A stretch of DNA of 64,000 nucleotides. Origin: Haladaptatus paucihalophilus DX253. GTDB taxonomy: Archaea > Halobacteriota > Halobacteria > Halobacteriales > Haladaptataceae. The translations under genes and the position numbers were made by a program. Positions 35,052 to 38,194 of the stretch are shown here, piece after piece. The notes under the pieces were generated by a model that was given only the letters and a program-made list of their open reading frames with translations, was not told the origin of the DNA and made no database searches. Every line of letters starts with the position of its first letter. Within the stretch, counting starts at the first letter, position 1. The DNA is taken from positions 590,962 to 654,961 of the forward strand of contig NZ_AQXI01000001.1 in assembly GCF_000376445.1 (NCBI RefSeq), in the 5' to 3' direction.

Positions 35052-35474
35052 TTACTGGTCGGGCAGTTCCATGGCCGCGACGTGCTCCGCGTACTCTTCG
35101 AGTACGGGTTGACCCCAGTACCGAAGCGATTCACTCCGTGCATCGTAGTCGATGATGTTCGCGTCAGCGAGTTTCGGGAGGTGTGTGTGGTGAAGCGATG
35201 CCTCGACGCGGCGACGGTAGTCGTCAGGGACGTCGTTGGCCGATGTTTCGGTCTCCCACGTAACGACCTGTTCGACGAGATCAGAAAGCGTCGCTACGCC
35301 GTCCGCTGTCGTCGAGAGATAGTGGATGGCGTATCGTCGTCGCTTATCCGACAGCAGTTCGAAGATGTCATCGAACGACGGTCTGCTCACTGCTGGCTCA
35401 GCGCGAAGTACGTGGGATGGATGACTCGACGGACGGTTCCCCGAGTCGTCACGGTAGGGTGACTCGTTGCTCAT
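35052..35474 (-). CDS. DUF7344-type winged-helix regulator
   Basis: A 140-residue regulator with an N-terminal acidic tail of 30 residues, then the wHTH: FELLSDKRRRYAIHYLSTTA, LSDLVEQV, ASLHHTHLPKLADANIIDYD. It is the same domain as at 560, here with a C-terminal extension. Its gene is divergent from the giant repeat-protein gene, with 314 bases between, so it is a candidate regulator of that gene (inference from position only). Confidence 0.75.
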   Translation of the reverse strand: MSNESPYRDDSGNRPSSHPSHVLRAEPAVSRPSFDDIFELLSDKRRRYAIHYLSTTADGVATLSDLVEQVVTWETETSANDVPDDYRRRVEASLHHTHLPKLADANIIDYDARSESLRYWGQPVLEEYAEHVAAMELPDQ

Positions 35475-35788
35475 GCGACGCTCAAGAGCAGTTGACCAGC
35501 ATAGATAAAGAATGGTGAATCTAGACACCTAGAAAACTGGCAGCGAAAATGAAATCACCGGCCCCAAGAGTTTTATTTCTAATGAATTAGACACCGAATA
35601 GATTCGGGGTGGTGCGGTGACGGGATTCGATGCTTCGAAATCGAGATTACCGCGATAGTTCGCTGTGACTACTTTCGGTATTGGCGACTGCGACCCTTCG
35701 GGAATCCTCAACCGAGGTCGGTGGTTCGAAGAACGGAATTAACAATGCCATCTGTTAACATGGATTTCCGGCGTGCAGGTCGTATCTC
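35475..35788. other. Divergent intergenic region, 314 bases
   Basis: No reading frame was found. It is less GC-rich than its surroundings, with TTTTATTTCTAATGAATTAG near 35570. An inverted repeat TTAACA...TGTTAA at 35739-35758 with an 8-base spacer overlaps where the core promoter of the repeat-protein gene should lie. A second smaller palindrome TCGATGCTTCGA is at 35628. I see no RNA gene. Confidence 0.5.
35739..35758 (+). promoter_or_regulatory. Inverted repeat TTAACA/TGTTAA upstream of repeat protein
   Basis: Six-base perfect arms, eight-base spacer, centred about 40 bases before the ATG at 35789. The position suits a repressor site or an activator site over the TATA region. No matching protein is known; the divergent DUF7344 protein is a positional candidate. 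Confidence 0.35.
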
Positions 35789-38194
35789 ATGACTCGACGT
35801 ACACGCACCGGCCTCGCGGTTGGCCTCACCCTCCTTATCCTCGTCAGCACCGCGAGTCTCGGGGTCGTTTCGATTTCGAAACAGTCCGATGCGCCCCGCG
35901 ACCAATCGTCGGAATCCACACGAACGCTCCCGCTGTTATCGGCGAGCGGGAGTTCGGAGAGGCTCCTCCAGCAGACAGGAGCGAACCAGTCAGACAGTGA
36001 GCAGGCCGCGACCCGCGGGGCCGTTCAGGGGGCGGCGCTGGCACAGCGACAGGGCGTCACCATCACGCAACAGCAACGACAGGCCGCCATCGAAGGCGCG
36101 GCACAGGCGGTCTCCCAGAATCAGCAGGCGTCCGTCGCCCAAGTGCAGGCCGCCGCCCGCGGTGCCGCACACGGTGTCCTGCTTCAGAGTCAGCGGGTGA
36201 ACGTGACCCAGATTCAGTCGGTGACGCGCGGCGCGACGACCGGTGCGACCACGCAGGTACAGCAGGCCAACGTCTCCCAAGTGCAGGCCGCCGCGTTCGG
36301 CGCGGGTCACGGCGCGGCCGCAGGAAGCCAGCGGGCGACCGTCTCGCAGGTGCAGGCCGCCGCCCGCGGCGCTGCACAGGGAGCGGCGACCGGCGCAACC
36401 GGGAATCAAAAGGCCAGCGTCTCCCAGATTCAGGAGGCCGGGCAGGGGGCCGCGTTCGGCGCGCTCGACCAGCGACAGAGCGCCTCGGTCGAACAGATAC
36501 AGGCGGCGACCCGCGGAGCTGCGAGCGGGGCGGTCCAAGCCCAACGCGCGAACGCGAAGCAGGTGCAAGTCGCCGCGATGGGCGCTGCTCGGGGCGGCGT
36601 CACGCAACGTCAGCAGGTGAGCGTCGAACAGATACAGGCGGCGACTCGCGGTGCGGCGGCCGGTGCCGTCTCGCAGGTTCAGCAAGTGACCGTGACGCAG
36701 ATTCAGGTCGCGGCGCAGGGTGCCGTAAGTGGCGGACTCAAGCAGGTCCAGCAGGCGTCGGTCGAGCAGATACAGGCGGCGTGTCGCGGCGCGGCGGTCG
36801 GCGCGTTGAGCGTCACGCAGATACAGGTCGTCAGCATCGTTCAGATACAGATCGTCGCACAGGGGTCGGCACAAGGCGCGGTGCAGGGTGCCGTCCAGAA
36901 ACAGGTCGTGAACGTCCAGCAGATACACGCCGCCGCGAAAGGGGCGGCACAGGGAGGCATCACGCAGGTGCAGACCGTTCGAATCACGCAGATTCAGTCG
37001 GCCTGCCTCGGCGCGGCGTCGGGTGCCATCACGCAGAATCAGCGGGTGAGCGTCACCCAAGTGCAGGCCGCGGCGCGAGGGGCGTGTGCGGGCGGCGTCA
37101 CGGCGAGCCAACGCCAGCAAGTCTCCGTCCGGCAGGTGCAAGCGGCGACGAGCGGCGCGGCGGGCGGCGCGATTTCCCAGAGCCAGCAGGCGACCGTGAC
37201 GCAGATTCAGGCCGCGTCACGCGGAGCGGCGACCGGCGGAGTCACGCAAATCCAGCGAGCGAGCGTCCGGCAGGTGCAAGCGGCGTCGTTCGGCGCGGCC
37301 GCGGGTGCGACGCAGGCTGCCAAACAGCGGGACGTGAACGACGCGGGTCAGATACAACAGACCGCACGCTCCGGGATTTCACAGGCCGAAACCCGCCTCC
37401 AGACGGAGGAAAACGTCCCGCCGGAGACCCTCCGTGAAACCGCCCGAAGCGAGGCGAGCGGGGAACCGACGCCGACGCAACCGACCACGACGTCGGGTGC
37501 GACTACGACGACTCCGGCGGCAACCCCGACGACGACTTCGGCGACCACCACGACCACTTCGACACCGACGACCACGAACGTCACCACCACGACACCAACT
37601 GTCACGACGACCACACCCACCACGAACGTCACCACGACTCCGCCGACCCCGGCGACTACTACGACCGCTGCGCCGACTACGACCACCACACCGAACGCCA
37701 CGACGACCACGACAACTACGACCACCGCACCGCCGACCCCACCGCTCACGGTGAACCTGACGTGTACGAGAATCACGGCGAACGCGACCCAACCCGCGGA
37801 CTACCGGGTCGAGGCGGTGTTGGTGAACGCCTCGAACCCGCAGTCCGCCGTGCTGGTGACGCGGAACGTCTCGGCGGCGGACTTCGAGCGAGCGCCGAAC
37901 GGAACCACCACGTGGACGAACACGACGGCCGACCTCAACGTCTCCGGGTACGTCTTCGTCAACGCGACGGTCTTCGATTCGAACGGCCAGCAGGTCGCGA
38001 CGGCACAGCAGGACGACGTGCAGGCGTGCATCCGGCAGGTCGGCGGAATTCCGCAAACGACGGTGCCACAGACGACCGTCAGCGGACCGACTGCGACCGC
38101 CGGTCCGACCACGGTTGCGACGACGGGTCCACAAACGACGCCAGCAACGCCAGTAACGACGAGGCCAGTGACGAATACGACGGCCGGGACGTAA
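35789..38194 (+). CDS. Secreted giant repeat protein: 23-residue Q/A/G repeats, Thr-rich linkers, sequon-rich domain
   Basis: An 801-residue exported protein that I do not recognise. Residues 8-30 are a signal peptide or anchor. Residues about 95-510 form roughly eighteen repeats of 23 residues with consensus QxxsVxQ[IV]QAAxRGAAxGAxxQ; QIQ or QVQ recurs at 118, 141, 164, 187, 213, 236, 258, 281, 304, 327 and on to 495. The array has only about six acids against some 27 basics, the reverse of normal halophile proteins. Residues 560-650 are Thr/Pro mucin-like. Residues 654-745 form a beta-rich domain with eight N-glycosylation sequons and two cysteines. A Thr-rich tail follows. No C-terminal PGF sorting signal is visible. 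I infer a surface fibre or adhesin. Confidence 0.7.
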   Translation: MTRRTRTGLAVGLTLLILVSTASLGVVSISKQSDAPRDQSSESTRTLPLLSASGSSERLLQQTGANQSDSEQAATRGAVQGAALAQRQGVTITQQQRQAAIEGAAQAVSQNQQASVAQVQAAARGAAHGVLLQSQRVNVTQIQSVTRGATTGATTQVQQANVSQVQAAAFGAGHGAAAGSQRATVSQVQAAARGAAQGAATGATGNQKASVSQIQEAGQGAAFGALDQRQSASVEQIQAATRGAASGAVQAQRANAKQVQVAAMGAARGGVTQRQQVSVEQIQAATRGAAAGAVSQVQQVTVTQIQVAAQGAVSGGLKQVQQASVEQIQAACRGAAVGALSVTQIQVVSIVQIQIVAQGSAQGAVQGAVQKQVVNVQQIHAAAKGAAQGGITQVQTVRITQIQSACLGAASGAITQNQRVSVTQVQAAARGACAGGVTASQRQQVSVRQVQAATSGAAGGAISQSQQATVTQIQAASRGAATGGVTQIQRASVRQVQAASFGAAAGATQAAKQRDVNDAGQIQQTARSGISQAETRLQTEENVPPETLRETARSEASGEPTPTQPTTTSGATTTTPAATPTTTSATTTTTSTPTTTNVTTTTPTVTTTTPTTNVTTTPPTPATTTTAAPTTTTTPNATTTTTTTTTAPPTPPLTVNLTCTRITANATQPADYRVEAVLVNASNPQSAVLVTRNVSAADFERAPNGTTTWTNTTADLNVSGYVFVNATVFDSNGQQVATAQQDDVQACIRQVGGIPQTTVPQTTVSGPTATAGPTTVATTGPQTTPATPVTTRPVTNTTAGT

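Follow-up and report, generated by a model that had tools for sequence, protein, structure and literature searches.

Apparently exported haloarchaeal proteins with arrays of a 23-residue Gln/Ala/Gly repeat, predicted to form one helix per unit

What fold, and what role, would a long array of short Gln-, Ala- and Gly-rich repeats have in a haloarchaeal protein? The question is raised by an open reading frame of 801 amino acids at 35789-38194 on the plus strand of the window, the 64,000-nucleotide stretch of the Haladaptatus paucihalophilus DX253 genome that was analysed. Its repeat unit has the consensus QxQx[VA]x[VI]xQ[IV]QAAxxGAAxGAxx, and 17 canonical units lie at 36116-37315 (aa 110-509), as delimited by the unit table, the shuffle test and the column statistics of 498 units. 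Two degenerate units precede them and one or two more follow, so that the number of about eighteen repeats given in the initial annotation is confirmed, and so is the regular period of about 23 residues: the spacings along the array are 23, 23, 23, 26, 23, 22, 23, 23, 23, 25, 26, 23, 23, 25, 23 and 23, exactly 23 in 11 of the 16 cases. The strict motif occurs 17 times, whereas 2000 shuffles gave 0.0025 on average and never more than 1. When the sequence is compared with itself at lag 23, 166 residues match; 500 shuffles reached at most 91, whatever the lag. Residues 62-515 contain 93 Gln, 109 Ala and 51 Gly. We regard a 383-aa open reading frame on the minus strand (35990-37141) as the array's antisense shadow.

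The array is one part of a longer protein. The gene begins with a signal-type segment (about aa 1-35, 35789-35893) with a hydrophobic stretch at aa 7-31 that has an equivalent in the homologues examined, and the protein thus appears to be exported, in line with its earlier description as secreted. The two degenerate units form an N-terminal cap (about aa 66-109, 35984-36115) that is conserved in the alignment and has predicted helices at 69-87 and 94-109 with high pLDDT; a segment resembling it is also found in the Asn-rich paralogues treated below. On the other side of the canonical units there are degenerate helical units, or a cap, at aa 513-557 (37325-37459; predicted helices 519-539 and 545-557, block pLDDT about 90), a linker rich in Thr and Pro at aa 565-650 (37481-37738; pLDDT mostly below 50), a putative β-sandwich with two Cys at aa 654-752 (37748-38044; seven predicted strands, block pLDDT 86-96) and a tail, also rich in Thr and Pro and without a membrane anchor (38051-38191). 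Among 30 relatives the β-sandwich is restricted to Haladaptatus and Halomicrococcus. The span of 36002-37321 first assigned to the repeats therefore does hold the array, but the real feature is larger, including the N-terminal cap, the C-terminal degenerate units, the linker and the β-sandwich.

Orthologues were found in all nine Haladaptatus genomes searched, eight of them in the genus being 66-78% identical over the repeat region, and 25 of 28 members of the family carry one. Of the 392 Halobacteriales genomes sampled, 121 have a relative, spread over 35 of 95 genera. When about 85,000 prokaryote species were scanned with two degenerate patterns, 40 relatives were confirmed, all of them haloarchaea and including Haladaptatus, Halorussus, Natrinema, Natrialba, Natronorubrum, Halobaculum and Halosimplex, and the matches in a phylum-wide sample were confined to Halobacteriales. 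The family is likely to be absent elsewhere, the pattern scan being one that sees part of sequence space only. Phage records and viral contigs that were searched gave no relative, and a plasmid search gave two copies on haloarchaeal plasmids, both annotated as hypothetical. There is mostly a single conserved repeat gene per genome, and the genome of the window has no second full-scale match to the protein. Compared with Haladaptatus sp. DYF46, the closest named relative, the repeat domain has a pN of 0.113 and a pS of 0.451, and hence is under purifying selection. For 15 of the 17 repeats the best match in that relative is the repeat with the same number, a share that drops with distance, which indicates that the array is old and fixed and does not expand freely or fast. 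One Haladaptatus orthologue (G007:C28:413213-414912) is split over two frames, corresponding to residues 2-478 and 476-563 of the query, which is either a frameshift or an assembly error.

The initial annotation knew of no described family for these repeats, and this still holds: no family in Pfam, NCBIfam, PHROG or the PDB covers them in the window protein or its homologues, the homologues do not place them in a known family of surface proteins, and we found no paper on them in the literature. The defining traits are a 23-residue unit with Q-8, Q-6, Q0, Q2, A4, G7 and G11 and an N-terminal export-type segment, and the window protein has them. The nearest general likeness is to the α-solenoid families, e.g. 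TPR, HEAT and TAL effector repeats (PMC11514114), which share the tandem helical units predicted here but have two helices per about 34 residues and not one per 23, and the present repeats also differ from them in being packed by Ala and Gly, rich in Gln and apparently extracellular. Models of TPR, HEAT, ARM and TAL repeats gave no sequence match. Surface proteins of haloarchaea that contain DUF7282 (PF23951) or TSP3 (PF18884) are related in the sense that homologues of the window protein bear these modules C-terminally, although the window protein has neither and its repeat domain stands apart from them as a unit. Judged from sequence, the repeats form a new family of a general kind that is already known, the helical tandem-repeat surface proteins.

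The fold was approached with AlphaFold2 (AF2) and with column statistics. The run on the whole protein, from an alignment of 32 rows that is least reliable in the middle of the protein, predicts 22 successive helices, roughly one for each unit, with block pLDDT mostly 74-94 at aa 60-220 and 75-91 at aa 400-560, falling to about 30 at aa 266-323, and with an overall pTM of 0.40. Five consecutive repeats modelled separately gave five helices at low confidence (pLDDT 52.7), so the models predict helices and not disorder. For the repeats an offset alignment was built from non-overlapping repeat windows. Position -3 is S, T, D or N in 80% of 786 units, and Pro in the same units is nearly confined to -7 to 0 and to 12, peaks at -2 (1.9%) and -1 (2.9%), in what would be the first turn of the helix, and is never found at 2-11; the motif itself served to pick the anchors behind these statistics, the units are related by descent and not independent samples, and this set was moreover selected by A4, G7 and G11 and a restricted set of residues at 5, 8 and 9, where the values are uninformative. 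Together, the two features are what a helix beginning directly after -3 would show. The variable positions 3, 6, 10 and 14 show helical spacing in 498 units, and in the copies of 25-26 residues those in excess of 23 were placed at the end of the helix or in the linker. Foldseek against the PDB and viral models found only generic helical proteins and repeats with low TM, among them weak matches to TAL effector repeats and to designed helical repeats. The models, the helix-cap residues and the proline placement favour one Gly/Ala-rich α-helix per unit with a short Gln-rich linker over a curli-like β fold, and the helix packing by small residues that had been suggested for the repeat agrees with these models.

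Conservation over positions -8 to 2 does however look strand-like. It alternates with period 2 (entropy power 0.52 at 170 degrees against 0.01 at 100), while the entropy over 3 to 14 peaks at a helical 96 degrees. This could mean that QxQxVxVxQIQ is a parallel strand with Gln and Val ladders and AAxGAAxGAL a return helix, the whole being a β/α solenoid, similar to leucine-rich repeats or a fibre-forming coil. The NQNVNINVIQNAAxGAAQGA-type repeats of the Asn-rich paralogues alternate more strongly still than the Gln-type units, and a family of this kind offers AF2 little to go on. On the other hand, the AF2 helix runs straight through -2 to 2, and a helix beginning there agrees with both Pro at -2 and -1 and the N-cap residues at -3. 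We regard a β or β/α fold, which had also been proposed at first, as unlikely, and less likely than an all-helical one.

The helical reading gains a possible function from the architecture of the homologues. In those examined the repeat domain is N-terminal, after the export-type hydrophobic segment, and the modules C-terminal of it vary by genus, some of the proteins also having a C-terminal membrane anchor. The repeats of Haladaptatus and Halomicrococcus are followed by the Thr-rich linker and the β-sandwich, those of Halorussus by copies of DUF7282, several of these proteins having a C-terminal hydrophobic anchor, and those of Natrialbaceae by DUF7282, sometimes with CARDB, and by acidic tails. 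TSP3 repeats and an anchor are found in Halorarius and Halobaculum, with CAP in one case, and a right-handed β-helix follows the repeats in Halosimplex. The Halorarius homologue with CAP (L106:8665-14088) has this SCP-like domain at about aa 1544-1648, before the membrane anchor, an unusual fusion. DUF7282, CARDB, TSP3, CAP and β-helix are typical extracellular modules, and we counted them in favour of a surface location. In the proteins anchored at the C-terminus the repeats would lie outermost, which would be the layout of a displayed surface domain.

We put even chances on the array serving the cell surface or matrix as a scaffold, structural or adhesive, and the packing mode, the location and the role that follow are what we infer for it. 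Each unit would have a helix of about 16-17 residues and a Gln-rich linker of 5-6 residues, the helix starting with the N-cap S/T/D/N and continuing as V/I-x-Q-I-Q-A-A-x-x-G-A-A-x-G-A-L. Neighbouring helices would run up and down, since such a linker is sterically too short to span a helix of 17 residues, and contacts between their Ala/Gly faces (A4, G7/A8, G11) could build up an array of elongated shape, its two edges lined by conserved Gln. This array would be displayed outside the cell, on a C-terminal stalk and anchor in some genera, and be either released or held by the signal segment in Haladaptatus and Natrialbaceae.

The surroundings of the gene point to no enzyme pathway, as no operon or conserved partner of that kind was seen at the loci compared, and no secretion, nucleation, csg-like or immunity partners stand beside it. 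The divergent neighbour in the window (35052-35528, minus strand) encodes a DUF7344 protein (Pfam PF24035, E 2.9e-27), and a DUF7344 gene adjoins the repeat gene at five other Haladaptatus loci; it is possible that its product regulates the repeat gene. The Haladaptatus flanks (carboxyltransferase, DUF7344, FBPase, aldolase) are housekeeping, and flanks differ between families. The repeat gene has apparent BioY/ECF transporter genes as neighbours in many Natrialbaceae, about 1-2 kb upstream (L085-L109, identified by eye). Both settings look related to biotin, but other genera lack this link, and it is probably a coincidence.

Curlin (CsgA) repeats (PF07012) are also exported, have a period of about 22-23 residues and carry Gln and Gly at fixed places. 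The window protein resembles them in apparent export, in period and in its fixed Gln and Gly, and differs in the spacing of conserved residues and in the lack of csg-like neighbours. Where curlin has strand-turn-strand units, AF2 predicts helices here, although conservation alternates over -8 to 2. It could accordingly be asked if the repeats assemble into an extracellular fibre, a functional amyloid of the haloarchaeal biofilm matrix analogous to curli. Regular Gln/Asn-rich repeats behind an export-type N-terminus would suit such a fibre, and biofilms of Haloferax volcanii have been reported to contain a matrix that is positive for amyloid dye, of uncertain identity and with a gene candidate that is only potential (PMC4180959). 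Haloferax is, however, not among the named relatives from the prokaryote pattern scan. The curlin Pfam model (S-x5-Q-x-G-x2-N-x-A-x3-Q) has no match at E<=1 in the window protein and 15 homologues, which bears out the earlier remark that the motif is not that of curli. With helices predicted, no secretion or nucleation partners adjoining the gene, and relatives whose C-terminal modules and anchors resemble those of displayed proteins, we find such a fibre improbable.

Haladaptatus species also have proteins of 600-780 aa made of NQNVNVNVIQNAAxGAAQGA units, found in several genomes (L069:6300-8132, L070:6653-8908, L072:7029-9362 on the minus strand, L073:6430-8295 and L074:7075-8880). They share the AAxGAAxGA core and the N-terminal cap with the Gln type, differ in their units of 21-26 residues with Asn in place of Gln, and are likewise uncharacterised. 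An hhalign comparison of the two types gave a probability of 100 and an E-value of 1.4e-38, values that low-complexity composition inflates. The Asn-rich units are 21 or 25-26 residues long, lengths about one helical turn apart, and some of the proteins have an apparent twin-arginine (Tat-type) leader. One paralogue (L014/L071, G003:C7:35038-36369) is interrupted by an in-frame TAA shortly after it begins and is, by its sequence, probably a broken copy; there are intact copies in the same genus. A bolder and rather doubtful idea is that both types make up a superfamily of exported Gln/Asn-ladder proteins specific to haloarchaea, which self-assemble in saturated salt to a fibre or sheet and are part of the proteinaceous biofilm matrix, with a fold unlike curli and known functional amyloids.

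The array in the window has 30 Lys and Arg against 9 Asp and Glu (aa 62-515), a basic excess that had been noticed at once and could speak for binding of DNA or acidic polymers. The net charge is +11 to +24 in the arrays of Haladaptatus and Halomicrococcus, but mostly about 0 to -36 in Natrialbaceae, a few being slightly positive, and several arrays of the Halorussus group are neutral to acidic as well, so that a positive net charge marks the first two genera and a few others and is no trait of the family. As the Gln/Ala/Gly frame stays constant while the charge varies between orthologous arrays, the main support for such binding as the core function is removed, and we give it little credence. 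The least credible reading, membrane-active glycine-zipper helices of a toxin- or pore-like kind, has the 3-7-11 spacing of Ala/Gly and one member's weak match to Gly-zipper_YMGG (E 0.037) in its favour, but the Gln/Arg-rich helices are too short and too polar to span a membrane, and a mostly single conserved gene without an immunity partner beside it is not what one would expect.

Of the sampled Halobacteriales genomes about one in three thus keeps a repeat domain that is apparently extracellular and that Pfam, NCBIfam and the literature searched leave without a name. Should it prove to be a scaffold of the surface or a protein of the matrix, the gene would be a ready genetic handle on adhesion and biofilm architecture in haloarchaea. 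An array with one helix for every 23 residues, packed by Ala and Gly, with Gln at its edges and working near salt saturation with no need of an acidic surface, would, if true, be a useful exception to the rule of the acidic proteome.
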